Below are positions 48,153-64,000 of a DNA stretch of 64,000 nucleotides, piece after piece (the first letter of the stretch is position 1; every line of letters starts with the position of its first letter). A program made the translations under genes and the position numbers. The stretch lies in NCBI RefSeq assembly GCF_000488255.1, contig NZ_KI530757.1, positions 1 through 64,000 on the forward strand. Direction: 5' to 3'. A model generated the notes under the pieces. That model was not told the DNA's origin. It searched no databases and worked only from the letters and a program-made list of their open reading frames with translations. Source of the stretch: Acinetobacter indicus CIP 110367. GTDB taxonomy: Bacteria; Pseudomonadota; Gammaproteobacteria; Pseudomonadales; Moraxellaceae.

Positions 48153-48228
<76 letters not shown>

Positions 48229-48274: not shown

Positions 48275-48350
<76 letters not shown>

Positions 48351-49244: not shown

Positions 49245-50426
49245 ATGGCTACCATCCGGGAACGAAGTGGCAAACTGATTGCCGACTTTCGCTACATGGG
49301 CATTCGTTGTAGAGAGACAACCAATCTTGAAGACAATGCTTATAACCGACGCATTTTGAAAAAACGTCTCGAACAGCTTGAAGCTGAAATTACTTTGGGA
49401 ACTTTTGAATACGAAAAGTACTTTCCAAAAAGTAACCGTGTTGAGGAGTTTAAGGAAAAAAGAAGTCAGCAAATTGCTGTACAGACCAAAGTTCCTCTTT
49501 TTAAAGAGTTTACTGAATTGTGGTTTAAGCAGAAACAAGTTGAATGGAGAACCTCATATCAGCAAAAGGTTTCAATTGTGATCAAAAACTATTTGATTCC
49601 TGCTTTTGGTAATCAGGTTCTCTCGAAAATCAAGAAGTCAGACTTGCTGAACTTCCGTGCCTCTCTCGCCAAAGTGACACACGGAAAAGATCAAACAAGT
49701 CTGAAAGCATCGAGGATCAATCAAATCATGACGCCTTTACGTATGATACTCAATGATGCGGCTGAACGATACGAGTTTGAGTCGCCTTATAAAAATATTA
49801 ACAATCTGAAGGAAAACAAGATTGAAGTCACACCTTTTTCTCTGGAAGAGGTGCATAAAATTCTTACCACAGTGCGTGAAGACTTCCGCCCCTATTACAC
49901 CATTCGCTTTTTTACGGGTATGCGTACCAGTGAAATCGATGGTCTGCAATGGAAAAATATCGACTTACAGCGTCGTGAAATCCATATCAGAGAAGCGTTA
50001 GTAAATGGCGAGCTTGGTGGAACCAAAACTTATGGTTCTGACCGTACCATCCAAATGAGTGATCGGGTTTATCAGGCCTTTCTGCAACAGAAAATGTTAA
50101 ATAATGGTAAATCAGAGTTTGTATTCTGCAATCGTGATGGTGGACCTCTCGATTATCGTCTGGTAAACAAGCGTGTCTGGCATCCTCTGCTACGCTTTTT
50201 AGGATTAACGCCTCGTCGTGCTTATCAGACACGTCATACAGCAGCAACGCTCTGGTTGGCGGCAGGTGAAAATCCAGAATGGGTCGCTCGCCAATTGGGG
50301 CATTCAACCACTGAAATGTTGTTCCGGGTCTATAGCCGCTACATTCCGAATGTTACCCGTCGCGATGGCAGTGCTTTTGAAGCCATGCTGGAGAGACTCA
50401 CTACAGAGGAGCTTGCACATGAATAG
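49245..50426 (+). CDS. Tyrosine recombinase integrase with DUF3596-type arm domain
   Basis: A 393-residue phage-type integrase. The N-terminal beta-rich arm-binding domain (MATIRERSGKLIADFRYMGIRC) resembles DUF3596. The SAM-like core domain follows, and the catalytic domain has the first Arg in FFTGMRTSEIDGLQW, HxxR in YQTRHTAATLWLAAG, the second His in ARQLGHSTTEM and the nucleophile Tyr in FRVYSRYIPN. All catalytic residues are intact. It probably integrated this module near the tRNA-Gly locus. The next gene overlaps its stop by 8 bases. Confidence 0.95.
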   Translation: MATIRERSGKLIADFRYMGIRCRETTNLEDNAYNRRILKKRLEQLEAEITLGTFEYEKYFPKSNRVEEFKEKRSQQIAVQTKVPLFKEFTELWFKQKQVEWRTSYQQKVSIVIKNYLIPAFGNQVLSKIKKSDLLNFRASLAKVTHGKDQTSLKASRINQIMTPLRMILNDAAERYEFESPYKNINNLKENKIEVTPFSLEEVHKILTTVREDFRPYYTIRFFTGMRTSEIDGLQWKNIDLQRREIHIREALVNGELGGTKTYGSDRTIQMSDRVYQAFLQQKMLNNGKSEFVFCNRDGGPLDYRLVNKRVWHPLLRFLGLTPRRAYQTRHTAATLWLAAGENPEWVARQLGHSTTEMLFRVYSRYIPNVTRRDGSAFEAMLERLTTEELAHE

Positions 50427-50735: not shown

Positions 50736-51278
50736 ATGCATAAAGATATTTCAATTTGGATGCCACTCTATATTGGCGACCTACAGGCGAAATTTGCACG
50801 AATGACAGCAGAACAAATTGGTGCGGCACTGCTGTTAATGATGGATTTCTGGAAAAATGGAGCTATTCCTCATGATTTAGCAACGGTATGCAGCATCACG
50901 AAATTACCGCAGCATACCAAGGCTAAAACTTTGTTGAATACGCTGACAGCATTAGAATTATTTGAAGTCGAATCTGAACAAATTCTTTCAAGTTTTTTAA
51001 CCAGTTTAAAAAGCCAGGCATTGCAAAATCAGCAAATGAAATCTGATAAAGCTAAAAATGCAGCTCAAGCACGTTGGGGGAAATCCGCAAGTAATGCTCA
51101 AGCATCAGCCAAGCAACGAAAAGTAAATGCTCAAGCAGCTCCTGAGAAGAACCCGAGTATTACTCAAGTCATGCTTGAACCATGCCCTTCATCTTCATCT
51201 TCATCTTCATCTTCATCTTCATCTTCAAATTTTGAAGAAAAAAATGAGGATTTTTTAGAAAATTCCAAATGGATTTAG
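50736..51278 (+). CDS. DUF1376 domain protein (phage replication accessory)
   Basis: A 180-residue protein whose start, ISIWMPLYIGDLQAKFARMTAEQIGAALLLMMDFWKNGAIPHD, is the DUF1376 domain (about 1-90) found next to replication genes in prophages. A charged middle region and a tract of 13 consecutive serines follow, the latter encoded by six TTCATC hexamers (51188-51223). The DnaC-like gene starts 10 bases after the stop, so the two probably act together in replication initiation. Confidence 0.8.
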   Translation: MHKDISIWMPLYIGDLQAKFARMTAEQIGAALLLMMDFWKNGAIPHDLATVCSITKLPQHTKAKTLLNTLTALELFEVESEQILSSFLTSLKSQALQNQQMKSDKAKNAAQARWGKSASNAQASAKQRKVNAQAAPEKNPSITQVMLEPCPSSSSSSSSSSSSSNFEEKNEDFLENSKWI

Positions 51279-51288
51279 GAGAGTGATC

Positions 51289-52032
51289 ATGAATACCATG
51301 CTTAAAACGCTCCAGTTTCGCACAGAAACAACGGAAACACTTTGCCCTACCCATCATATACCCCTGATGGAAATCGCTGGTCACAAGCTATGTAAATTGT
51401 GTGCCAAAGAAACCGTCCATCACTCACATGCAGCCTATGCAGATGAGTTGCAACAGCGATTGCTACAACAGAAAATCAAAAACTCAGGGCTCAATAAACG
51501 CTACCTGGATCGTGGCTTCAAGAATTATGTAGTTGCATGCCCTGCACAAGACAATACCATCAAACTATGTCAGGCCTTTGCACAGCAGATTATTTCTGAC
51601 CACAACCCGAACATGTTGATGATTGGTACACCAGGTACAGGTAAAACCCATCTGAGTGCATCAATTATTCGCAACATTCTGCATAACAGTACAAAATCTG
51701 CACGCTACTATACCAGTGCAGAAATTGCTCAAAAAATGATGGACACTTGGTCAGATGCTTCACGCTCTGAAAAGGAAGTCATCGACCATTTCTCCAGCTT
51801 TGATTTATTAGTGATTGATGAATATGGCCTGCATGACCGGCATGAAAAACGCCTGGAGATGGTGCATAAGGTCTTATATAGTCGTTATGACAATATGAAA
51901 TCTACCCTGCTGATTTCCAATTTCACAGTCCAAAATATGCAGCGGGATTTAGGTGTCCGATTATGGTCAAGGTTGCATGAAAATAGCCTGATCATTGTTC
52001 CATGCTACTGGGCAGATCAAAGGATTACTTAA
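51289..52032 (+). CDS. DnaC/IstB-like ATPase, replicative helicase loader
   Basis: A 247-residue AAA+ protein: a zinc-finger-like N-terminus (CPTHH, CKLCAKE), Walker A MIGTPGTGKTHLSA, Walker B LLVIDEYGLHD and sensor I LLISNFTV. This matches phage DnaC-like helicase loaders that deliver DnaB to the element's origin. TAGGAGAG before the ATG at 51289 supports this start over a GTG at 51283. It ends the module; a terminator and an IS remnant follow. Confidence 0.9.
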   Translation: MNTMLKTLQFRTETTETLCPTHHIPLMEIAGHKLCKLCAKETVHHSHAAYADELQQRLLQQKIKNSGLNKRYLDRGFKNYVVACPAQDNTIKLCQAFAQQIISDHNPNMLMIGTPGTGKTHLSASIIRNILHNSTKSARYYTSAEIAQKMMDTWSDASRSEKEVIDHFSSFDLLVIDEYGLHDRHEKRLEMVHKVLYSRYDNMKSTLLISNFTVQNMQRDLGVRLWSRLHENSLIIVPCYWADQRIT

Positions 52033-52309: not shown

Positions 52310-55186
52310 TTAAAATCCCACATAAAACTTTTCAATCAACTGACGTGTCTTGACCATCAAGTGAGTGAAGACGTTCTCCCGCTCAAACAGCTTAACCTTA
52401 TAGTTTGGTAAGTCCTTCAATTCTTCCTTACGTGGTAGGCGTTTGGTGAACTCATAATGCTCCAGAACCTGCTTCATGGCTTCTGGTTTCAGGTTTTCTT
52501 CTTTACAAAGATGCTGATAGGCCTGTTCTTTTTCAGCATCCCAGAATTCAGAAAAAGCTGTTTGGACGCTTTGGCCGTTGATCATCTTCGGCATGTTTTC
52601 TTCAATGAATTTTTGAATGAGGTCTTGCTTATCGTGCAAGCTAATATCGCTACTGATTAAATCGTAAATTTGCGCTTGGTACTTCTTACGCTTGTCCTCT
52701 GAGTCTGTATCAACAACAAGCTGTAGCAGGTTGATGATATAACCAACATTAATGCGATCACTATGCAGTAAATCCAGTTGAAAATCGACATCATCCAGTA
52801 CCGATACTTTGTCTCTCTTGGTGGTCTTTCTAACGGCACGACATAGGTCAGCATACTTAGAGGCGAAGTTTGCAAAGTGCTGCTTATCAAGTTGTGTTTG
52901 GTCTTGATCGTATTCAATAAAAGTTTGTAATTGCGCGTTATAGCGCATCACTTCACGGAAAGCTTTAATAAATTCGAGTTGCTGTTCTTCAGTGACAAGA
53001 TCATCGACTGATTGGTAATTGGGCGTTAAGGCAAACAATTTGCTCACCGCTGCTTGGTAATCCTGTTCGATTTCCGCATAGCTTGGAACAAGGACGATCT
53101 TGGTCGTTTCTTTGTTGGAAAATAGTGCCAGCGCTTCATCCGTTGCACGTTTTAGGTTACGGAAACAGATGATATTGCCAAATGGTTTTTTATCGTTGTA
53201 GACACGATTGGTACGAGAGAATGCTTGAATCAAGCCATGATATTTTAGGTTTTTATCGACATACAAGGTATTTAGCGGCTTAGAGTCAAAGCCCGTGAGG
53301 AACATATTGACCACAATTAGAATATCAATCTGTCTGTTTTTTACGCGCTGTGCAATGTCGCGGTAGTACGCATAAAATTGATCACCAGAATTGTAGTTGG
53401 TTTTAAACTGTCGGTTGTAATTGGCAATGTATCGATCCAGCTTATCCCGACTGGATGAATTGACCTGAGTTGGAATATCTGCGGCTTCTTCGTGAATCAA
53501 GCCAGTTAAGTCATCAGTCGGTACAGCCTCATTTGCCGCATAGGAAAAGATGGTGGCAATGGTCATCGGTTTAAATATCCGACCTTGTGCTTCATCTTCA
53601 ATTTGCTTTTCGGCCTGCACCTTTTCAAAGAGGTCGTAATATTGGGTCAGTGTTTCGACCGAACTGACACAGAACATTGCGGTGAATTCACGATTACGGG
53701 TTTTGGTATCGTGAATACTGACAATGTAGCGGGCAATCATTTCCAGTCGTTGCGGATTGTCATACAGTTCTTTGGTATCGATGCCTTCTACATCTTCCTC
53801 ATAACTTTCATTCGTCGCCATGCCTTTGGCGGTGTATTTGCCACGATAATCAATCTGGAACTGCAAGACGTTACGGTCACGGATGGCATCGACAATCACG
53901 TATTTATGCAAACACTCATTAAACAGGTAATCTGTGGTGAGTTTTAAACCTGCTTTGCTTTGGCTGTTCTTTTCAAAAATAGGCGTACCGGTAAAACCAA
54001 ACATCTGCGCATTGCTGAAGAATTTTTTGATGTTCTGATGGGTCTCACCAAATTGACTGCGATGACATTCATCAAAAATAAAGACCACTTTTTTATTTTT
54101 AAGATAATCAATCGATTCTAAATAACGTTCAGTGCTGATGGCCCGATTGAGCTTTTGGATGGTGGTCACAATCAGTTTGTCATGACGTTGATCGAGCTGT
54201 TTTACCAAGGTCGATGTGTTATCTGTGCTGTCGACGCTGTCGGCTTTAAAAGCATTAAATTCGCGTGAGGTTTGCGTATCGAGGTCGTTACGATCGACCA
54301 CAAACAAGACCTTTTCAACATCGGGCATTTGCATGATGATCTGACTGGCTTTAAATGAGGTCAGGGTTTTGCCTGAACCGGTGGTGTGCCAGATATAGCC
54401 GTTCTGATCGGAGTTTTGCACATGCTCCACAATTTTCTGTACTGCATAAATCTGATAGGGACGCAGCACCATCAGGCTTTTGGTGGTTTCTAGCAGCACC
54501 ATGTACTGGGTCAGCATTTGGGTTAGATGCTGCTGATTTAAAAAAGCTTCGGCAAAGTCGACAATTTCATTGATATGTTTGTTATGGACATCCGCCCAAG
54601 GAAAGGCAAACTCGATGCCTGTGGTGCCGTTGGAGTAATAACGGGTATTAGCACCGTTACTAATCACAAACAGCTGAATAAAACCAAATAGCCCTTGCCC
54701 TGCCCAATAGGCTTCACGAATATAGCGTTGGGTTTGATTAAAGGCTTCGGCGATTTCCATGCCGCGTTTTTTCAGCTCGATCTGTACCAAAGGCAAACCA
54801 TTGACCAGTAAAGTCACATCAAAACGGCTGGTTCTGCCATTATAGTCGCGGTGGTCGATGGTGATTTGATTAGTGACCTGATAAATATTTTTGCTAGGAT
54901 CATCAGACAGGAAAAAAAGGTGTTTACTGGTTCCATCATCAAATTTGACTGGGAACAGATCACGCAGATTTTTGGCGCGCTCAAATACTGTGCCCGTATT
55001 TAAAAAACTGATGACCTGTTTCCATTCAGTTTCTGACAGTGGTGCTAGCCCATTGGCACGTTCAATCTGGGTTTTCAGGTTGGACAGTAGCTGGCTTTCG
55101 TCCTTGAGCGTCACTGATGAATAACCCAGTTGTTTGAGTTGATCAATTAGTTCGTTTTCAAGTTGATATTCACTTTGTACTGTCAT
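52310..55186 (-). CDS. hsdR: Type I restriction enzyme, R (motor and nuclease) subunit
   Basis: A 958-residue HsdR. The N-terminal PD-(D/E)xK nuclease has Asp123 and the ELK triad at 137-139 (RFDVTLLVNGLPLVQIELKK). The SF2 translocase has Walker A HTTGSGKT (267-274), the Walker B box DECH at 372-375 and the GFTGTPIF motif III equivalent. Later motifs (MFLTGFDSKPLNTLYVDK, QAFSRTNRVYNDKK with the arginine finger) are intact. It cuts unmodified DNA as part of the R2M2S complex. It is the last gene of the operon. Confidence 0.96.
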   Translation of the reverse strand: MTVQSEYQLENELIDQLKQLGYSSVTLKDESQLLSNLKTQIERANGLAPLSETEWKQVISFLNTGTVFERAKNLRDLFPVKFDDGTSKHLFFLSDDPSKNIYQVTNQITIDHRDYNGRTSRFDVTLLVNGLPLVQIELKKRGMEIAEAFNQTQRYIREAYWAGQGLFGFIQLFVISNGANTRYYSNGTTGIEFAFPWADVHNKHINEIVDFAEAFLNQQHLTQMLTQYMVLLETTKSLMVLRPYQIYAVQKIVEHVQNSDQNGYIWHTTGSGKTLTSFKASQIIMQMPDVEKVLFVVDRNDLDTQTSREFNAFKADSVDSTDNTSTLVKQLDQRHDKLIVTTIQKLNRAISTERYLESIDYLKNKKVVFIFDECHRSQFGETHQNIKKFFSNAQMFGFTGTPIFEKNSQSKAGLKLTTDYLFNECLHKYVIVDAIRDRNVLQFQIDYRGKYTAKGMATNESYEEDVEGIDTKELYDNPQRLEMIARYIVSIHDTKTRNREFTAMFCVSSVETLTQYYDLFEKVQAEKQIEDEAQGRIFKPMTIATIFSYAANEAVPTDDLTGLIHEEAADIPTQVNSSSRDKLDRYIANYNRQFKTNYNSGDQFYAYYRDIAQRVKNRQIDILIVVNMFLTGFDSKPLNTLYVDKNLKYHGLIQAFSRTNRVYNDKKPFGNIICFRNLKRATDEALALFSNKETTKIVLVPSYAEIEQDYQAAVSKLFALTPNYQSVDDLVTEEQQLEFIKAFREVMRYNAQLQTFIEYDQDQTQLDKQHFANFASKYADLCRAVRKTTKRDKVSVLDDVDFQLDLLHSDRINVGYIINLLQLVVDTDSEDKRKKYQAQIYDLISSDISLHDKQDLIQKFIEENMPKMINGQSVQTAFSEFWDAEKEQAYQHLCKEENLKPEAMKQVLEHYEFTKRLPRKEELKDLPNYKVKLFERENVFTHLMVKTRQLIEKFYVGF

Positions 55187-55243
55187 TTAACCCTCTAATC
55201 TTTTAAATTATTCACGTCAATCTTGATTATCTATAATAAAAAT

Positions 55244-55906
55244 TTAAGCAACTTCGATACCTTGCGCATCAAGATAATTATCTAACTCTTCTGAGTACGC
55301 ATCATAATCTTGCTCAAACAATGCCTTGCTATAACTTAAACCACTAGGCAATTCAAATTGCTCATCAAGAAAATTATTAAATTCAGGATACTCCTCGTAA
55401 CGGTAACTTTGTGTGTAAGAGAGATCAATTTTAAGCAGAAGAAGAAGCAATATATATGATAATCGATCTGTTGTTTGTGCAATAATCTGAGCTAATTCCA
55501 CTCCAACTGAATAACTCTTTGGAAGAATTTTGCCGTGAGATATCTCACCAACATTATTTCTCATCTCCCCCAGAAAACGTATCCATTGATTAAGTGCTGA
55601 AAAGTAATTTTCTATGTCGCTTTTTGGCATTACATTTTCAATTGCTGAATGTTCGTAAATGCACTCCTTAGCTTTTTTAAACAAGCGCCCTAAATCCAAT
55701 AAATTAATATCCTTAGCGTTTTCATACGGTCTAAGTTTTAAAATAATATTTTTAGCTATCGCTTCTATAAACGATTTACTACATTCAATCAGCGTATCTC
55801 CACACTGATTAGTTTGTTGATCAATTTGACTTAATAATCTTTCTAAATCTTGCAACCATTTATGTTTAGATGAATGTATTGCTATAAGTTCTCTGGATTT
55901 TTTCAT
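55244..55906 (-). CDS. Abortive-infection-like protein between hsdS and hsdR
   Basis: A 220-residue, mostly helical protein. The RNNVGEISHGK segment resembles the C-terminal motif of Abi_C/HEPN-like abortive infection proteins (RN-GxxxHG), and the N-terminal half is helical (KKSRELIAIHSSKHKWLQDLERLL). HEPN-type proteins are often RNases. The AGG before the ATG at 55906 and an 8-base gap from hsdS favour this start over one inside hsdS. Position within the restriction operon suggests a backup defence triggered if restriction fails; that is inference. Confidence 0.7.
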   Translation of the reverse strand: MKKSRELIAIHSSKHKWLQDLERLLSQIDQQTNQCGDTLIECSKSFIEAIAKNIILKLRPYENAKDINLLDLGRLFKKAKECIYEHSAIENVMPKSDIENYFSALNQWIRFLGEMRNNVGEISHGKILPKSYSVGVELAQIIAQTTDRLSYILLLLLLKIDLSYTQSYRYEEYPEFNNFLDEQFELPSGLSYSKALFEQDYDAYSEELDNYLDAQGIEVA

Positions 55907-55914
55907 AACAAAAC

Positions 55915-57042
55915 CTATATAAACATCTGCTGCAACAAGCCTTTTTTCCAAATTTTCGCTTGTTCAATTTGCTCTGCCACCACTTCAATTTTTTGATCAA
56001 TGGCAGATAAAAAATTAGCGATTTTTGTTTGTTCTTCTAGGCAAGGTACTTGAATTACCACTTTCTTTAATAAACTACCTGTAATCAATGGCTGACCTGT
56101 CCCAAAAACTAACTTATTTAATTGAAATTTTTCTAAGAATGCACGAATAAAAATATAATCTAGATTTGATGGTAATTCTAAAATTAGCGTATTATCAGAT
56201 ACATTATATTGACCACTAACCATATAAATATAGCCAGCATTGTGTCCAACACGTGCAATTAAAATTCGGGTTCCTTGGTAATCATATTCATTCGAATACC
56301 CAATTACTCCAGTAGACCCATAATAATAATATTTAGCTAATTCCAATTTTTCATGTGAGGATTTCCCTGAAGCTATAGAAACTCCTTTAATTTTGCCTAG
56401 AGCAATTTCCTCCCACTCCCCAAACTCGCTACCATCATCCGCTTTAAAACGAAGTTGCTGACTAAACAGCCTTTGCATCATGCCTTGTTTATATTGGCTC
56501 AGCAGCTCATGTTTTTGAGTCAGTTGGCTAATCTTTTCATCCACTGCGGAAAGAAAAGAGGCGATTTTGGTTTGTTCTGCTTTACTTGGCAAATGAATTT
56601 CATATGGTTCGATATGTTTATTATTTATCTGAGGAATTGTAGAAGTATCAGCAATTTTATAAAGTTCAACTTTATTAATTAAATAATATAAATATTCAGC
56701 ATCCAAAGTATTTTGTGGAATAAGAGCCATAAGATTGCTATCTAATAAAGAATCGACTTTAAGGATACGAACTTTATTATTTAGAATAGCTGCCCCTCTT
56801 TTTGGAAAAATTACACTTTTTTTAGGAATTACATCAGCACAAGTTTCAGTATAAAATCTTGAATATTCTTGATATTTATTACTGTTGTTTAACTCTTCGA
56901 CTTTTAAAAATGGTATTTCACCATTTTCGTGTAACTCGTATTTGCTAGGAGAATAACCGCTTTTAATCTGGACAATATTACCCAGAACTTCAACATTCCA
57001 ATTTTCATCAAATTCTTTGAATCTTAACGCTGGACTAGACAT
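55915..57042 (-). CDS. hsdS: Type I restriction enzyme, S (specificity) subunit
   Basis: A 375-residue HsdS with two target-recognition domains, each followed by a conserved helix: EQTKIASFLSAVDEKISQL (near 170) and EQTKIANFLSAIDQKIEVV (near 350). The near-repeat of these helices gives the pseudo-symmetric layout. The target sequence cannot be read from the protein. The ATG overlaps the hsdM stop as TAATG, a translationally coupled start at 57042. The TRDs are the parts most likely to differ between strains. Confidence 0.93.
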   Translation of the reverse strand: MSSPALRFKEFDENWNVEVLGNIVQIKSGYSPSKYELHENGEIPFLKVEELNNSNKYQEYSRFYTETCADVIPKKSVIFPKRGAAILNNKVRILKVDSLLDSNLMALIPQNTLDAEYLYYLINKVELYKIADTSTIPQINNKHIEPYEIHLPSKAEQTKIASFLSAVDEKISQLTQKHELLSQYKQGMMQRLFSQQLRFKADDGSEFGEWEEIALGKIKGVSIASGKSSHEKLELAKYYYYGSTGVIGYSNEYDYQGTRILIARVGHNAGYIYMVSGQYNVSDNTLILELPSNLDYIFIRAFLEKFQLNKLVFGTGQPLITGSLLKKVVIQVPCLEEQTKIANFLSAIDQKIEVVAEQIEQAKIWKKGLLQQMFI

Positions 57043-58610
57043 TACTTCACCTCCGCAAAAGGTGAAACAATGCCTAGCTCTTTGCAAAAATCTGCAATGA
57101 TGGCATCGGTCTCTTGGCTGTCTTGTTCCAAAGCTTGAAGCTGTTTTGCAATCGCATCTAAATCAATCTCGGCTTCCGCTTCAAAGGTATCCACATAACG
57201 CGGAATATTCAGGTTGTAATCGTTATCTTTGACTTCTTGCAAGGTCGCGACATGCGCATATTTTTCAATATTTTCACGCTTTTCAAATGCCGCAACAATC
57301 TTATCCAAATGCTCAGACAATAACTTGTTTTGATTCTTCTGCTTTTCAAAATCATTGCTGGCATCAATAAACAAAATATTGTCTTTATGCTCACGGTTTT
57401 TCTTCAACACCAAAATACAGGTCGGAATCGAGGTGCCATAGAATATATTGGCGGGTAGACCAATAATCGCATCCACCACGTTCAACTGTTCAATCAAATA
57501 CTGACGAATCACGCCCTCGCTCGAACCACGGAACAAGACGCCATGCGGTAACACCACCGCCATGGTGCCATTGTCATCCAGTTGATACAGCATGTGCTGT
57601 ACAAAAGCCATATCGGCTTTGGAGCTTGGCGCCAGTTTGCCATAAGAAGCAAAACGCTCATCTTGTAAAAATAACGGATCGGCAGACCATTTTGCAGAAA
57701 ATGGCGGATTCGCCACCACCGCATCAAACTTTTTATCTAAATGCTGCGGACGGGTTAAAGTATTTTCCTGCTTGATGTCGAACTTGGCAAAATGCACATC
57801 ATGCAGAATCATGTTCATGCGTGCCAAGTTGTAAGTAGTACGGTTCATTTCCTGACCGTAAATCATATCGACATCTTTGACTTCACGTTTTACCCGTAGT
57901 AACAATGAACCCGAACCACAGGTCGGGTCATAGACTGAACGTAAACGGTCTTTGCCTTGGGTGACAATCTTCGCCAGTAAAGTCGATACCGTTTGTGGCG
58001 TATAGAATTCCCCCGCTTTTTTGCCCGCGCCTGAGGCAAATTCACCAATCAGGTATTCGTAAGCATCCCCCAGTACATCGGCTTCGGTATTACTAATATC
58101 AAAATCAATATCATCTAAATGACTGAGGACTTTCGCCACCAGTGCATTACGGTCGCTGGCATTATTGCCAAGCTTGGTCGAGTTTAGATCCAAATCTTCA
58201 AACAGGTTGGCAAAGTCATCGGCAGAGTCGGTGCCTAACGTGCTTTGTTCAATTGATTTTAAGGTCGCAGTTAAATCATCCAGAATGAATTCGCCCTGAC
58301 GACCACGCTCGGCTAAGGTATGGAATAGCTGTTTTGGTGTAAGCGCATAACCCACTTCGGCAATGGCATTCTTTTTAATTTCTTCGATGTACGGCACATG
58401 CTCAGCATTATTTTCATCTAATTCTAAAAAGCTGAGGTCTTCGCCATCGAGCAATTCATTGGCAAAGTTCACCGACTTTTCCGATAAATATTTAAAGAAA
58501 ATAAAACCCAGAATGTAATCACGGAATTCATCTGCCCCCATGGTGCCACGCAAAGTATTGGCAATATTCCAAAGTTGTTTTTGTAGTTGTTGCAGTTGTA
58601 CTTGGGTCAT
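57042..58610 (-). CDS. hsdM: Type I DNA N6-adenine methyltransferase (M subunit)
   Basis: A 522-residue HsdM: an N-terminal HsdM helical domain (about 5-150), the SAM-binding motif I DPTCGSGSLLL (228-238) and catalytic motif IV NPPF (301-304). EFYTPQTVSTLLAKIV is the conserved pre-motif segment. It methylates adenine in the target bound by HsdS. It is the first gene of the operon; its promoter should lie in 58611-58760, left of the MITE. Confidence 0.96.
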   Translation of the reverse strand: MTQVQLQQLQKQLWNIANTLRGTMGADEFRDYILGFIFFKYLSEKSVNFANELLDGEDLSFLELDENNAEHVPYIEEIKKNAIAEVGYALTPKQLFHTLAERGRQGEFILDDLTATLKSIEQSTLGTDSADDFANLFEDLDLNSTKLGNNASDRNALVAKVLSHLDDIDFDISNTEADVLGDAYEYLIGEFASGAGKKAGEFYTPQTVSTLLAKIVTQGKDRLRSVYDPTCGSGSLLLRVKREVKDVDMIYGQEMNRTTYNLARMNMILHDVHFAKFDIKQENTLTRPQHLDKKFDAVVANPPFSAKWSADPLFLQDERFASYGKLAPSSKADMAFVQHMLYQLDDNGTMAVVLPHGVLFRGSSEGVIRQYLIEQLNVVDAIIGLPANIFYGTSIPTCILVLKKNREHKDNILFIDASNDFEKQKNQNKLLSEHLDKIVAAFEKRENIEKYAHVATLQEVKDNDYNLNIPRYVDTFEAEAEIDLDAIAKQLQALEQDSQETDAIIADFCKELGIVSPFAEVK

Positions 58611-58957: not shown

Positions 58958-60001
58958 CTAAACACCTAATATATGTTTATCTTTTCCATCTAGCCAGACT
59001 AAATATTCATTCTCTATTGCCTGCTTATACGCCCAGTCGGCAACCCGATGCGAACGTTGCAGATCGGTTAAAAAACCTAATTGAGAAATTTCCCGAACAA
59101 TAGATTGATCATGTAGATAGTTCCGCTCCTGCCACTGTTGCAGAAATTGTTCTGACGCCAAATAATTACTTTTTTGTGAGTTGCACTTTTCATCCGCCAG
59201 GACAAAATTATGTCCGGTATCGGCAGGATATAATGACCATGGAATAAAATGATCCACGGCATATTTTGAATTTTTTAGGCTTTTGCCACAGTAAAAACAC
59301 TGGCATTGCTGTACGTCAATTAAGAAGTCCGCGACCTTCCCCAGTTGATTGCGACTTGGGGCAAACATGAATTCATCTAGATCAGGCAAACCATCCAGTA
59401 CCACTAGGTTCTGCTTGTTTAGCCGAACAAAATCAATCCAGCGCTTCTGGCACAACTCTTCAATGATTTCACTAAATTGTCTTAAGCAATACATCACCTT
59501 GGGCAACAGCTTGAGGGACTGCTTGGAATCTTCAAGACTATAGAGAAACTCTATGGTTTGACCATTCAAATTCTGCAAATACACCACCGGCATTTGCTTT
59601 ACCGTTGTTGCAACTGCTCGCTTCAACCTGTTCCAGTAAAGTACATCCTTTCTCAACGCGGCCAAGGTCTCGAATTGTTGCTGTGCTTTCTGGATTTCAC
59701 TGATGATCTTTGCCTGCTTACCAGTGCTTTGATGAATAGTAAAAGGCTCATACTGGTTAAACTGAAACGGCAGTGACTGTTTCCAGTACAGGTCAATAAA
59801 CTTTTCCGCAATATCCTGATAGTCCAAATGCAAGACAGCACCAGTATCTTGCCCCTGTTCAATCGCCAGACGCGTGATACTTATCAGTAAGGCAAACTTA
59901 TATGTCGAAGTAAACGTCCCTGACTGCAAAATCTGCTGAATATGCTTTAAGAATTTCAACTGTTCTTGAGGGGTTGGTATTTCGGCTATACTGAATAACA
60001 T
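58958..60001 (-). CDS. HNH endonuclease
   Basis: A 347-residue protein with a C-terminal HNH domain: CFYCGKSLKN (C235, C238 zinc ribbon), VDHFIPWSLY (D250-H251), GHNFVLADEKCNSQKSNYL (H264-N265, C273). The N-terminal 230 residues are helical with no domain I know, probably for target or partner recognition. It begins 2 bases after the upstream methyltransferase stop. The tight pairing suggests a nuclease-modification unit; a homing or repair role is possible. Confidence 0.82.
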   Translation of the reverse strand: MLFSIAEIPTPQEQLKFLKHIQQILQSGTFTSTYKFALLISITRLAIEQGQDTGAVLHLDYQDIAEKFIDLYWKQSLPFQFNQYEPFTIHQSTGKQAKIISEIQKAQQQFETLAALRKDVLYWNRLKRAVATTVKQMPVVYLQNLNGQTIEFLYSLEDSKQSLKLLPKVMYCLRQFSEIIEELCQKRWIDFVRLNKQNLVVLDGLPDLDEFMFAPSRNQLGKVADFLIDVQQCQCFYCGKSLKNSKYAVDHFIPWSLYPADTGHNFVLADEKCNSQKSNYLASEQFLQQWQERNYLHDQSIVREISQLGFLTDLQRSHRVADWAYKQAIENEYLVWLDGKDKHILGV

Positions 60002-60003
60002 AT

Positions 60004-60594
60004 CTAAGCCTGCACTTTTCTAATCAGAATATTCATCCACTCTTCTGTACGCTCTGGACGTTTATCTACAGTAATCCATTGTTGTAACAGTAAAGCCTGA
60101 TCGATCTGCTTAAGTAAGTCATGAGCTTGCTGTTCATTCAAGTCAGTAAAGCTACGCCCCTCTATCTCACGGTCTGTATTGCCATACTTAAAAGACATGT
60201 AACACACACCATTTAGCTTTAATGCTTTGAATATAAGCCCCAGCACTTCAGTTAGGCGATCTCTTTCACAATGTAAAAGAGATGCACAAGCCCAAATACC
60301 ATCGTATTTATTATTCTCAGCTAGGTCATAAAAACTTTGCTGACGTACTTCAATATTGGTCAGCTCCCTGGCCTTTTTAACCAGCTCGGCAGAATAATCA
60401 ATTGCCTCAACTTGATAGCCTTTTTTCTTAAATGCCAAAGTGTCCCGCCCCGAGCCACAGCCCAAATCTAGGATCAATGCCTGTTCCGGCAAATATCTTA
60501 GAAATGGTGCGTAAAGACTTTCCATTTCAACCTGATAGGTATTTTCAAAAAATGCTTGAGCATGTTGATTGTAATAATTTGATGTTTGATTCAT
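60004..60594 (-). CDS. Class I SAM-dependent methyltransferase
   Basis: A 196-residue methyltransferase with motif I ILDLGCGSGRDTLAF (41-55), motif II VEAIDYSAELVKKA and later motifs (YDGIWACASLLHCERD). It lacks the NPPY/DPPY motif of DNA adenine methylases, so it may modify a small molecule, protein or RNA rather than DNA. It is encoded directly upstream of, and nearly touching, the HNH nuclease gene. Small methyltransferases of this kind also occur in tellurite-resistance families. Confidence 0.82.
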   Translation of the reverse strand: MNQTSNYYNQHAQAFFENTYQVEMESLYAPFLRYLPEQALILDLGCGSGRDTLAFKKKGYQVEAIDYSAELVKKARELTNIEVRQQSFYDLAENNKYDGIWACASLLHCERDRLTEVLGLIFKALKLNGVCYMSFKYGNTDREIEGRSFTDLNEQQAHDLLKQIDQALLLQQWITVDKRPERTEEWMNILIRKVQA

Positions 60595-60745
60595 TGTCTA
60601 AAAGCCAATATCTTATGTTAAAGAACATACTGATTTTTCACTAGATAAGTCAAATGATCAGTCCTATGAATGAATCAAACTCTTATTTCACTGTATCCGG
60701 ACAACTGAGATAGAAACCAAACTGGTTCTTATAAATGGAAAAAAT

Positions 60746-60859
60746 ATGGGCTTCAGATTTCGCAAGAGTATTAAACTGCTACCTGGATTAAAAATTAATC
60801 TGACGCATAAAGGCATCAGCAGTTATTTTTTGAATTTAGCCATTCTTTGTACCCCATAA
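60746..60859 (+). pseudogene. Truncated DUF4236-like remnant
   Basis: Thirty-seven codons beginning MGFRFRKSIKLLPGLKINLTHKGIS match the conserved start of DUF4236 proteins (MGFRFxKxIKxLPGxRxN). The frame then departs into unrelated residues and stops. It lies in the 338-bp gap between the methyltransferase and the next gene and is probably a decayed fragment of an island gene. The rest of that gap holds nothing I recognise. Confidence 0.7.
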
Positions 60860-60932
60860 TATCCACTGCTAGGCAAAATTTAATTCATTCATTACTATGG
60901 ACGGATGTTAAATACAATAAAGGCTGCCGCTG

Positions 60933-61247
60933 ATGTCTGATAATGACAGTACTATGGATTATGATGAAAATGATTTAATCGATTCTCCCTTGTCTCAAAT
61001 TTTAAAAGAGGATAATGAGCAAATTGAAGTTCTAATTTATCGATTACCCGATAGTGACTGGACACTGGAAGTGGTAAACCAAAATGGTACTTCTACGGTA
61101 TGGGATGAAACATTCCCGTCAGATCAGGAAGCTCTATCTGTTGCTTTAGATGGAATTAAAGCTGCAGGCGGTATTCAAGCCTTTTCAGAACTCAGTGACC
61201 TTGAAGCAAAGAACAATATTTTTCCTGAATCACTTACTCGCCATTAA
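60933..61247 (+). CDS. Small acidic hypothetical protein
   Basis: A 104-residue, strongly acidic protein. A disordered start (SDNDSTMDYDENDLIDS) is followed by a compact part (VLIYRLPDSDWTLEVVNQNGTSTVWDETFPSDQEALSVALDGIKAAGG) with beta-strand and helix character. No family is recognised. A weak purine stretch precedes the ATG. Composition and position in a defence-rich region are the only hints. Confidence 0.65.
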   Translation: MSDNDSTMDYDENDLIDSPLSQILKEDNEQIEVLIYRLPDSDWTLEVVNQNGTSTVWDETFPSDQEALSVALDGIKAAGGIQAFSELSDLEAKNNIFPESLTRH

Positions 61248-61316
61248 AAATGAAGCTGCTAGCGTGGATATGAATCAGTATTTTCTGGATTCTTAGAACC
61301 TGTCGCGATGATAGGT

Positions 61317-61610
61317 TCACTTTAACCCAAACCCATCTAGTGTTGAAGGGTCAAAATTTTCATCAAACATAAACTCATCTGCTCGCTCTTTTCTTAATGT
61401 CGCCAAGGCATAAAAGAAACATTTCTCACATAACTGCAATTCATATCTTTCACCGTCATGCTTAGAACCATAGCCCCAATGCGCCGATAAAGTGCCAAAC
61501 TCCAGTTTCGTTGATTGGTTGCATACATCACATACAACATCTGTAACGACTTCTATCTGTTCAGTTCTTTGATCTCCATATCCAATTCCTTGTAAATCCA
61601 ACTTAAACAT
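61317..61610 (-). CDS. Small zinc-ribbon-like hypothetical protein
   Basis: A 97-residue protein with two CxxC pairs (VCDVCNQST and LCEKCFFYAL) about 33 residues apart, a typical treble-clef or ribbon zinc site. The middle (LSAHWGYGSKHDGERYELQLC) is conserved-looking. It may bind nucleic acid or protein; the function is unknown. It is convergent with the acidic protein gene. Confidence 0.72.
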   Translation of the reverse strand: MFKLDLQGIGYGDQRTEQIEVVTDVVCDVCNQSTKLEFGTLSAHWGYGSKHDGERYELQLCEKCFFYALATLRKERADEFMFDENFDPSTLDGFGLK

Positions 61611-61748: not shown

Positions 61749-62375
61749 GTGAATATTATATTTTATTTTTCAGCCACTTGGCATAAATATGGGGAGACAT
61801 CAGCATATGTCTATAAAAAAAAAGCTATTGAAAGTCATCGTGTATCTTCAAAAAACTTAAAATTAATGTGTTATCCAAAATGTATGCATGCGTACCAAAT
61901 CTGGATAGCTTTATTTTTCCAACTGAGTGATAAACAGCAAAACTATCACTTGAATTTAACTTTTAAACAGAATATCGAAATCCCGCTCCTTACCACTAAA
62001 ACACCTGATCACTATTTTTTTAGTAGTCATTTCAGCTGGATCTATGCTTATTTTTACAATAAGAATAAAAATGAATTTAAGTTCAGAGCTTATGAGAAAA
62101 ATAATTCCTACCAATTCACCATCCAGGCTTTAAGCGAAGTTAGGGCCTTACTGTGTTCCGGATTACATCACTCAATTCATGGCTTAGATATCATCGCATA
62201 TTGGCTAAATGAACAATACTTAGCCGCACATCTTCAGGAAGTTTTCGGTCAGGAAGTTTTAACTATCAATCATCTACGAGAATTATCAGGGCTATCTAAA
62301 TCCAAAAGTCCAGTAAGTTCTATTTCAAATTATACCGGCCCACTTTCATTAGAAAAAATTCTGGCGGGAATTTAA
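61749..62375 (+). CDS. Hypothetical protein, first gene of a two-gene unit at the right edge
   Basis: A 208-residue protein with many aromatic and basic residues (SATWHKYGETSAYVYKKKAIESHRV ... YPKCMHAYQIWIALFFQLSD). The C-terminal half is helical and ends LRELSGLSKSKSPVSSISNYTG. I recognise no family. The GTG start at 61749 lacks a clear ribosome-binding site; the first internal ATG is at residue 39, so the start is uncertain. The next gene begins 2 bases after its stop, so the two are coupled. Confidence 0.65.
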   Translation: MNIIFYFSATWHKYGETSAYVYKKKAIESHRVSSKNLKLMCYPKCMHAYQIWIALFFQLSDKQQNYHLNLTFKQNIEIPLLTTKTPDHYFFSSHFSWIYAYFYNKNKNEFKFRAYEKNNSYQFTIQALSEVRALLCSGLHHSIHGLDIIAYWLNEQYLAAHLQEVFGQEVLTINHLRELSGLSKSKSPVSSISNYTGPLSLEKILAGI

Positions 62376-62377
62376 TC

Positions 62378-64000
62378 ATGAACGGATATCGTTATTTAGA
62401 AGATACTCAAGAATTAAAGCTTGAGCCATTTCGAGACTTCTATCAAGCACTGGCGGAAGCAAAACTGGAAAATGATCAGGACTTCTTTAAGCTCAATGAT
62501 TTCATCCAACCAACTGAAGTCGTTAAACTAATTAAAATTATGACTCAGCATCCTACTGATCTATCGATTAGTAAATATCCATTGGTGCATTATCTCCGGG
62601 CTCTGATCAACACTCCATCAGCATATCAATCAAATGCCCTAAAATGGGGCGTTTTCAATACTCAATGCATTGAATTACTTGATAGCAAAGAACATGCAGC
62701 TACTGTGGCTAATCTTTGTAGGCGTTTTCGTTTAGCAAGCACAAACGAGCAATACTATTGGCTCTATAATTTTCTACCTTCTCTGCCTCTAGAATTAGAA
62801 TATCTAATTGATTTTATAGATAAAAAAGAGAAGAAAAATAAAGAACTGCTGAACCGATCCCTAGAAATTTTGAGTAAAGAGCAAATCGGCCAACTGGCAG
62901 ATATTCGTGTCATCTATCAATATGCATATACTCAATCAGAGCGTCAAAAAAGACATCGTCAAAGCAATTCAAGCGCCCAGGAACCACCTCAAACTGATGT
63001 TAAGAAGACATCAAGAATGTCTCTTGATGATGAAAAAATACATCAGACTTGTTTTGAACGCGGTATAGCAAAACAGCCACCTGAGGATAAAACTATAGAA
63101 AGAGTTGAAGATCATAATTTTGAATTTAACTCACTAGAGCAATGTTCTATTACAGCTCAGATCAATAATCTCAAAAATAAAATTCTGCATCAAAACAAGA
63201 ATCAGTTAATGAGCAAATCAAATCCTCGTGTTTTTGATTTGCCTACCGCGCAGCATATTATACGAATTTTGTTTGAACAGGCAGAAACCTCTCCAATTCA
63301 TGCCTTGCTTTTATTTTCAGTACTCAGTTTGACGCATTATGAAGAGTTATTAGTATTTCGGAAACATTTCCGTCTCAGCTCAAAAAGAAAAGAAATTACT
63401 TTTAGTCCTGAAAATTTCTATTTTCGGCAAAGTTTTGATAACTCTAAATTTAAAGATGCTTTATTAAAAGAATATATGCTGAATATAGGAAGTTCTTTTA
63501 CCATCCCCTTACCCAAAGTTTATTTTGATCAGATTTTTCGACTAAAAAAGTGGGATAAAGCTGATATTGCTTCCGATGTACAAGAATATTTACGTAGAAT
63601 CAGTGACGGCCTTACTTTTCACTTAACAGCTCGAAACCTTCCTCGTTTAATCAGTGATATTACGTTGAATGAACTTGGATATGAATTGGAAAGTAAATTA
63701 CTTAGTGGAGAAAACGTTAATAGCTACACCCCAGGCCATTACTATTCAATGAAAATTGTTGATATCCTCGATATTTATAGCCAGACACTTTACCTAGTTT
63801 ACCCGCAGCTCGACACTAATTATATCGAAGAATTTAAATCCCCTGTTACTTTCGGTAGTCAGCAAACGCCAGACCTGCCACTGGTTAAATCCTTTTTTAA
63901 ACAGCTTGATCAGCAAGTTCGGGGCAACCCTAACCCTTTTAAAACACTGAAATATTATTCAATTTGGCTATGGCACGTTTGCATGATTATGACATCTGCA
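62378..64000 (+). CDS. Large protein with weak tyrosine-recombinase resemblance, partial (runs off the edge)
   Basis: The frame is open for 541 codons from the ATG at 62378 to the window end without a stop. The N-terminal 270 residues are helical and Gln-rich, with no known domain. From about 290 the pattern resembles a tyrosine recombinase catalytic domain: ALLLFSVLSLTHYEELLVF (like the region of the first Arg, but with HY in its place), SFTIPLPKVYFDQI, then LTARNLPRLI and TPGHYYSMKI. Key catalytic residues are not clearly in place. It may be a degenerate recombinase or helper of an island integration module. No firm function can be given. Confidence 0.7.
   Translation, partial: MNGYRYLEDTQELKLEPFRDFYQALAEAKLENDQDFFKLNDFIQPTEVVKLIKIMTQHPTDLSISKYPLVHYLRALINTPSAYQSNALKWGVFNTQCIELLDSKEHAATVANLCRRFRLASTNEQYYWLYNFLPSLPLELEYLIDFIDKKEKKNKELLNRSLEILSKEQIGQLADIRVIYQYAYTQSERQKRHRQSNSSAQEPPQTDVKKTSRMSLDDEKIHQTCFERGIAKQPPEDKTIERVEDHNFEFNSLEQCSITAQINNLKNKILHQNKNQLMSKSNPRVFDLPTAQHIIRILFEQAETSPIHALLLFSVLSLTHYEELLVFRKHFRLSSKRKEITFSPENFYFRQSFDNSKFKDALLKEYMLNIGSSFTIPLPKVYFDQIFRLKKWDKADIASDVQEYLRRISDGLTFHLTARNLPRLISDITLNELGYELESKLLSGENVNSYTPGHYYSMKIVDILDIYSQTLYLVYPQLDTNYIEEFKSPVTFGSQQTPDLPLVKSFFKQLDQQVRGNPNPFKTLKYYSIWLWHVCMIMTSA

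Follow-up and report, generated by a model that had tools for sequence, protein, structure and literature searches.

The arrangement known as RIT comprises three adjacent recombinase genes. The strand-biased circularizing integrative elements (SE), which carry the genes intA-tfp-intB-srap, are characterised by a strand-biased circle, the absence of an empty donor site and a 6-bp footprint; intA, intB and srap are reported to be needed, and a tfp knockout could not be made (PMC10214605). For GInt elements, PMC5385486 reports that all four genes of ginABCD are needed and that the families share only 24–40% identity among themselves.

The locus analysed here starts at the edge of a 64,000-nucleotide stretch (the window), which comprises positions 1–64000 of contig C13 of a 3.2-Mb genome, and the rest of it lies beyond (Table 1). 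The first-pass annotation, made from the window, had described a two-gene unit. Both of its open reading frames are present where it placed them, the first encoding 208 residues and the second leaving the window after 541 codons, but the DNA beyond 64000 reveals three genes (X, Y and Z): Y continues to its stop and is followed by Z, a tyrosine recombinase and the third gene for which a search had been suggested. X and Y are separated by 2 bp, and Y and Z overlap by 4 bp when the reading frames are followed past the window edge. With about even confidence, we read X-Y-Z as a mobile element's own tyrosine-recombination module, self-contained and working in the manner of Tn554, SE and GInt elements. 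It matched none of the known multi-recombinase elements compared and by analogy may work like them; no paper on the module appeared among those listed in searches of an open-licence library. What computation shows is the genes and their conservation, the folds, an island anatomy that recurs and, on plasmids, a fixed left end.

With SE, the locus shares a large intact tyrosine recombinase, a recombinase-fold protein with an altered active site, a small helper, an operon at a defined end, cargo and several targets; it differs in gene order and in having no IntA in the operon, and Y keeps the residues R-K-R-H, whereas Tfp is described as being without the RHRY motif (PMC10214605). The likeness to GInt lies in a conserved multi-recombinase operon, variable cargo, an att-bounded island and one altered-site recombinase. 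According to PMC5385486, however, ginABCD opens with recombinase genes and has its small gene last, and GinC is without the first Arg that Y keeps; the layout of three recombinase genes followed by a small gene is not seen here, the order being small gene, altered recombinase, large recombinase. Tn554 (tnpA-tnpB-tnpC) likewise combines a large tyrosine recombinase with helpers and inserts site-selectively (PMC10214605); the X-Y-Z unit has no recombinase of TnpA size. GMT (Gamma-Mobile-Trio) systems (Mahata et al. 2024, as cited in PMC12715929) are also formed by three genes that include a recombinase and occur in islands with defence cargo.

Table 1. Features of the tRNA-Gly island in and beyond the window (contig C13 numbering).
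Feature	Position	Strand	Length	Remarks
tRNA-Gly(gcc), first of tandem pair	48153–48228	+		Left end of island
tRNA-Gly(gcc), second copy	48275–48350	+		Island begins within or after
int393, ordinary phage-type integrase	49245–50426	+	393 aa	PHROG integrase 1.1e-62; tRNA end of island
Primosomal-protein-like gene	50736–51278	+	180 aa	
DnaC-like helicase loader	51283–52032	+	249 aa	
Type I restriction-modification R, S, M genes	52310–58610	-		Cargo; PADLOC
Gene between R and S	55244–55951			No PADLOC match
HNH nuclease, methyltransferase-like, 104-aa and 97-aa genes	58958–61610			
X-Y-Z cassette	61630 to ~67523	+		Bounds from exchange versus locus L041
Gene X	61749–62375	+	208 aa	GTG start; ParB/sulfiredoxin-like model, then helical C-terminal end
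Gene Y	62378–64558 (window part 62378–64000)	+	726 aa	C-terminal tyrosine-recombinase fold
Gene Z	64555–67512, beyond window		985 aa	Tyrosine recombinase, full catalytic set
Xre/MbcA/ParS-like gene	67603–67971, beyond window		122 aa	3' of Z
HipB-like gene	68293–68553, beyond window		86 aa	After Xre/MbcA/ParS-like gene

The X, Y and Z proteins

The catalytic set of tyrosine recombinases (R-K-H-x-x-R-H-Y) is complete in all 69 aligned Z proteins. Z matches Pfam Phage_integrase above the cut-off (1e-7), reaches 87% against int393 in hhalign and gave two weak integrase matches in a profile search against PDB sequences.

By sequence alone, Y matched no known recombinase: no PDB sequence was returned in the profile search, hhalign against int393 gave 0.3%, and searches of the Pfam, NCBIfam, PADLOC and PHROGs collections were unproductive within the limits set. 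A weak Pfam match to bZIP_Maf (0.01) was read as a coiled-coil artefact. The predicted structure, computed for the Y protein of A. chengduensis (82% identical; mean pLDDT 78), carries a recombinase fold, bearing out the recombinase-like character that had been proposed for the second protein. Structure comparison places the catalytic fold at the C-terminus (residues 494–714), with a Z-score of 14.8 over 166 residues to an archaeal Xer protein (PDB code 4a8e), and recombinases rank top in Foldseek with an E value of 0.016 at best. The first-pass annotation had singled out residues 290–541 for structure prediction; this stretch does hold most of a second, weaker recombinase-like region (approximately 281–451), but the catalytic fold lies largely outside the window. 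Its further claim, that the first Arg is altered, does not hold, since the window edge cut before the codon concerned: Arg542 is present in 71 of 71 Y proteins and its codon starts at 64001, the first position beyond the window.

Among the same 71 aligned proteins, R542, K566 and H679 are invariant and R657 is kept in 70. The box-II His is replaced by Asn in 67 (Asn654 in the present copy), and the nucleophile position is occupied by Tyr in 25, His in 21, Phe in 15 and another residue or a gap in ten (Tyr690 in the present copy). The family thus has the fold of tyrosine recombinases but not their complete catalytic set, the departures being at the box-II His and the Tyr. Comparison of the middle region (approximately 281–451) with the protelomerase TelA gave Z-scores of about 7 with r.m.s.d. 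values of 3.8 to 8 and one of 10.7; hhalign of Y against Z over this region gave a probability of only 1.5%. These comparisons suggest that the middle region is a second recombinase-like domain. An elaborate scheme, which we think improbable, would make the unit a new class of transposing module: a ParB-fold X would load two giant recombinases, Y would build a composite active site from its two recombinase-like domains, and the island would have one insertion system for tRNA-Gly and a second, independent one for plasmids and other sites. The composite site would combine the four C-terminal residues R542, K566, R657 and H679, each present in at least 70 of the 71 proteins, with Tyr455 of the middle region, which is invariant (71/71); the C-terminal Tyr is often missing.

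The structural model of X (pLDDT 80.6) gave a best Z-score of 6.7 over 91 residues, and a Z-score under 8 is no proof of fold; Foldseek E values were 0.09 or worse. Of the 26 structural matches listed, 25 are, judged by title, ParB, Noc, KorB, PadC, sulfiredoxin and their relatives. The assignment of X to a ParB/sulfiredoxin-like fold, which comes from this model, is suggestive only. The same four family collections, within the same limits, held no meaningful match to X, the profile search against PDB sequences gave none, and no CTP-binding motif was recognised by eye in the alignment of X proteins.

We infer from these features a reaction, a division of labour with the island integrase and a role for X. 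Z would cut and join DNA; Y, its partner, which has the recombinase fold but an altered active site, would bind the other half-site or hold the complex; and X would serve as a small DNA-binding adaptor. The trio would insert adjoining DNA at several sites and would probably excise it as a circle. The integrase int393 would serve tRNA-Gly and X-Y-Z other targets, and the island probably has these two recombination systems.

The tRNA-Gly island

The unit belongs to a tRNA-Gly island that carries type I restriction-modification genes, a setting in keeping with the association with mobility that had been suggested from the window. The order along the island is tandem tRNA-Gly, int393, the primosomal-like and DnaC-like genes, cargo and, on the right, X-Y-Z. 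The phage-type integrase, the tandem tRNA-Gly genes and a displaced tRNA half at the right end are as in ordinary tRNA-Gly islands, from which this one differs by the extra X-Y-Z module at the opposite end. All or part of the block of HNH and methyltransferase-like genes precedes X in several islands, with cassettes of either type. The HNH nuclease gene beside the methyltransferase-like gene in the window (58958–60001) shows weak PtuB/Cas9 HNH similarity.

Close relatives of Y, matched over at least 721 residues at 65–82% identity, occur in 11 of the 148 other sampled Acinetobacter genomes (G117, one of them, has a frame break near the start of Y); beyond these, one more Y at 47% identity and one N-terminal fragment were found. 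Six close-type islands (G083, G117, G146, G029, G035 and G043) finish on the right with a conserved end sequence followed by a displaced tRNA-Gly half, and the same anatomy is seen in the island of G074 (the 47% type). The other six of the 12 close-type genomes, source genome included, had no close-type right end in the DNA examined. An intact tandem tRNA-Gly pair near the gene to the right of the G083 island is found in G087 and G042 (two of 30 loci, G083 itself being one of the 30), though about 1 kb in between differs.

In the source genome, a search on both strands of 49200–77900 for words of at least 13 bp in common with the tRNA-Gly region detected no copy of it, and a displaced tRNA-Gly half with a distant-type end is present at 108103. 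The source-genome island is composite, with this distant-type end, a second X-Y-Z at approximately 88–95 kb and only parts of it after the tRNA pair in G138. The second module (C13 87942–95326) is of the distant type, with Y split by other DNA, and is followed by HipBA-like genes and a large gene and then by the displaced half at 108103. Beyond the window, at C13 68757–73591, is a cluster of diacylglycerol kinase-, PAP2-, two-component and phosphoethanolamine-transferase-like genes (named by eye), which in G138 lies near the tRNA-Gly pair (96% identity) and may be island cargo. A reading of dgkA and its neighbours (from 68.7 kb) as chromosome beyond the island is weakened, as in G138 they follow the tRNA-Gly pair and precede DNA of the source genome's second island.

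Linkage to the island integrase

Relatives of int393 were found at 39 places in 37 of 149 Acinetobacter genomes. Downstream of 27 of these, on the same strand and within 60 kb, lies a Y gene; three show another arrangement, and for nine the contig holds no Y within 60 kb. Four of the nine lie within about 1 kb of the contig end on that side. Seen from Y, 32 of 55 typed places are linked to int393 and 23 are unlinked. These counts come from typing the 39 int393 and 55 Y places by hand, and omit six Y matches of similar score (G096, G086, G081, a G117 fragment, G000:C14 and G134) as well as weaker ones.

Such linkage is what would be expected if X-Y-Z assisted the island's own integrase (int393 or another of the 400-aa type) as an accessory complex, with integration and excision of the tRNA-Gly island requiring all four proteins. 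This explanation, which we regard as possible but tentatively so, stands close behind that of a self-contained module. Were the island circularised, its joined att site would have the trio on one side and int393 on the other, and all four genes of GInt and the three SE genes that could be knocked out are needed, according to PMC5385486 and PMC10214605. The third X-Y-Z module of the source genome (C14 43723–49780; L046 7224–13281) has a 400-aa integrase 286 bp 3' of Z and in the same direction. Against a four-protein machine are the 23 unlinked places among the 55 typed and, more weakly, the finding of the 400-aa-type integrase profile in only ten of 77 scan loci, since these loci span at most 10 kb on each side and int393 usually lies farther away.

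The types of cassette and of int393 also mix, which likewise counts against such a machine. All six close-type right ends found read '..AAATCTCGGTGAC', with integrases 72–97% identical to int393, and distant-type right ends read '..TTTATGTCGGTGA', with one base change within it in G115. The latter sequence lies on the same contig as integrases of 77–78% identity in G106, G024, G009, G107, G115 and G114 and of 96% identity in G073 and G126. Since integrases of 96% identity accompany either cassette type (G117 and G029; G039, G073 and G126), island ends have been exchanged. The right-end sequence tends to follow the type of cassette rather than that of integrase, an association that may be due to linkage alone, the two lying close together. 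A third kind of right end (G144, G014 and G143, with integrases of 65–68%) is on contigs other than those of the respective Y genes; it could as well follow the integrase and does not help to separate cassette from integrase.

The pattern search for right ends misses close-type ends, so that its tally covers the distant type and similar ends, and 30 of the 33 matches listed were examined as loci. No tRNA half follows the end in seven of these 30. Four such genomes (G106, G024, G114 and G142) keep an intact tRNA pair at the int393 end. The right end of G106 precedes ribBA (named by eye), as does that of the source genome, and may represent the source-genome site with its tRNA half lost. Right-end flanks without a tRNA half are one-sided evidence.

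Relation to described multi-recombinase elements

A recombinase module of several genes with defence cargo, as outlined in the first-pass annotation, is what the extended locus shows, but the suggestion that it might be a RIT or GMT element found no support. The RIT layout is not seen, the predicted fold of X being ParB-like and not recombinase-like. None of the three proteins matched the GmtY model NF040693 (441 positions) when scanned against NCBIfam with E values of up to 1, and the recomb_assoc model NF040692 had no match at the X-Y-Z locus. A third model, NF040694, considered as GMT-related, proved to be unrelated. Elsewhere in the source genome, matches below the cut-off to recomb_assoc (NF040692) and recomb_GmtY (NF040693) lie at C12:133885–134007 and C12:271632–271919, the sole GmtY match of the genome being on C12.

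SE was represented by single sequences, the proteins of pAQU1, picked by the blaGMA-1 neighbourhood and gene order. Profiles of X, Y and Z against IntA, Tfp, IntB and Srap reached at most 1.1% in hhalign over all 12 pairs. Z gave 1.1% and 0.0% with IntA and IntB; Y gave 0.6% with Tfp and X gave 0.1% with Srap. Since Z reaches 87% against int393 by the same yardstick and Y only 0.3%, the negative result carries weight for Z but not for Y, and the comparison of X, made with a single Srap sequence, weighs little either.

That X-Y-Z is a very diverged, unrecognised member of GInt, SE or GMT appears unlikely to us. In its favour, SE and GInt are built from the same kinds of parts (one recombinase that is altered and one that is large and intact, a small helper and often an ordinary integrase nearby), and GInt families are only 24–40% identical to one another (PMC5385486); yet the gene order is unlike that of either SE or GInt, the GmtY model is without a match and the comparison with the one SE, while saying little for Y, peaks at 1.1% in 12 pairs.

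Cassette exchange and plasmid ends

Up to 61629 and again from approximately 67521–67524, the source DNA is 91 and 89% identical, respectively, to locus L041, and the Z proteins encoded between these flanks are only 24% identical. Two cassettes with so different a Z thus occupy one and the same place, and for the window's own cassette family only this exchange defines the left end.

In the plasmid type with an X of 154 aa, the same left-end sequence lies 161–162 bp before X in 17 of 18 scan loci, and the 18th has a one-base variant. This fixed end adjoins six different flanks, one of which is common to 13 loci, and a seventh flank, that of L027, is uninterrupted in plasmids L209 and L210; the right flank of this site was not found after the L027 module. 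The left end in L145 (at 7786) falls within an IS66-type transposase gene, of which L104, L121, L135 and L213 carry uninterrupted copies; neither L145 nor L106 yielded the second half of the interrupted gene. A distant-type island in G126:C40 (L255 at 2939) has its right end against that same base of the gene. One base of an IS66-type gene is thereby used by two X-Y-Z elements that are only distantly related, at the left end of one and the right end of the other. On plasmids, insertion sequences obscure where the module ends on the right, and an apparent cargo step directly after Z on plasmids was discarded, the change in L213 being an IS66-type insertion. We found no X-Y-Z element for which both ends and also an empty site could be identified.

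A fixed left end beside seven flanks, one of them inside a transposase gene, fits insertion and makes it very doubtful that X-Y-Z serves to resolve multimers or to maintain islands and plasmids, as the ParB-like fold of X, the Xer-like Z and the rep or toxin–antitoxin genes near some plasmid copies might otherwise suggest.

Distribution

Relatives of Y are present in 62 of the 149 sampled Acinetobacter genomes, source genome included. A scan of species genomes gave 77 related loci, nearly all in Acinetobacter, Psychrobacter and Moraxella (Moraxellaceae); the odd hosts Streptomyces and Kineococcus may reflect contamination. The order X-Y-Z is kept in 67 of the 77 loci, the ten exceptions being broken, cut or without a recognised neighbour, and with Y matches recurring in this way the arrangement is not due to chance. 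A passenger without present function, or simply other cargo, is least probable of all: the second module of the source genome (C13, approximately 88–95 kb) does have a broken Y, but the catalytic residues of Z (69/69) and the gene order (67/77 loci) have been kept.

Among 369 gammaproteobacterial genomes, the Y profile matched six (five of 368 with the source genome set aside), and hhalign backed four of the five distant relatives at probabilities of 94–98%. The large Y-like proteins at L164–L167 received no specific name from NCBIfam, and two of them are followed by a gene for a Z-like protein (94 and 63% in hhalign). Because of these matches and the adjoining Z-like proteins, the Y-Z pair has distant relatives outside the Moraxellaceae. 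A search of plasmid proteins with one of the distant relatives found nothing.

On plasmids of Acinetobacter the X-Y-Z module is common, a relative of Y being encoded in 230 plasmid records, all from this genus. If X-Y-Z is indeed a mobility machine, it would account for part of the traffic of defence and other cargo between islands and plasmids, and would join SE and GInt as a further multi-protein recombinase system with an anatomy of its own. In the records examined, Y is annotated as a 'hypothetical protein' or not at all and Z as a 'site-specific' or 'tyrosine-type' integrase. The plasmid modules of L204, L206 and L211 adjoin genes annotated as YhfG/Fic and HipBA.
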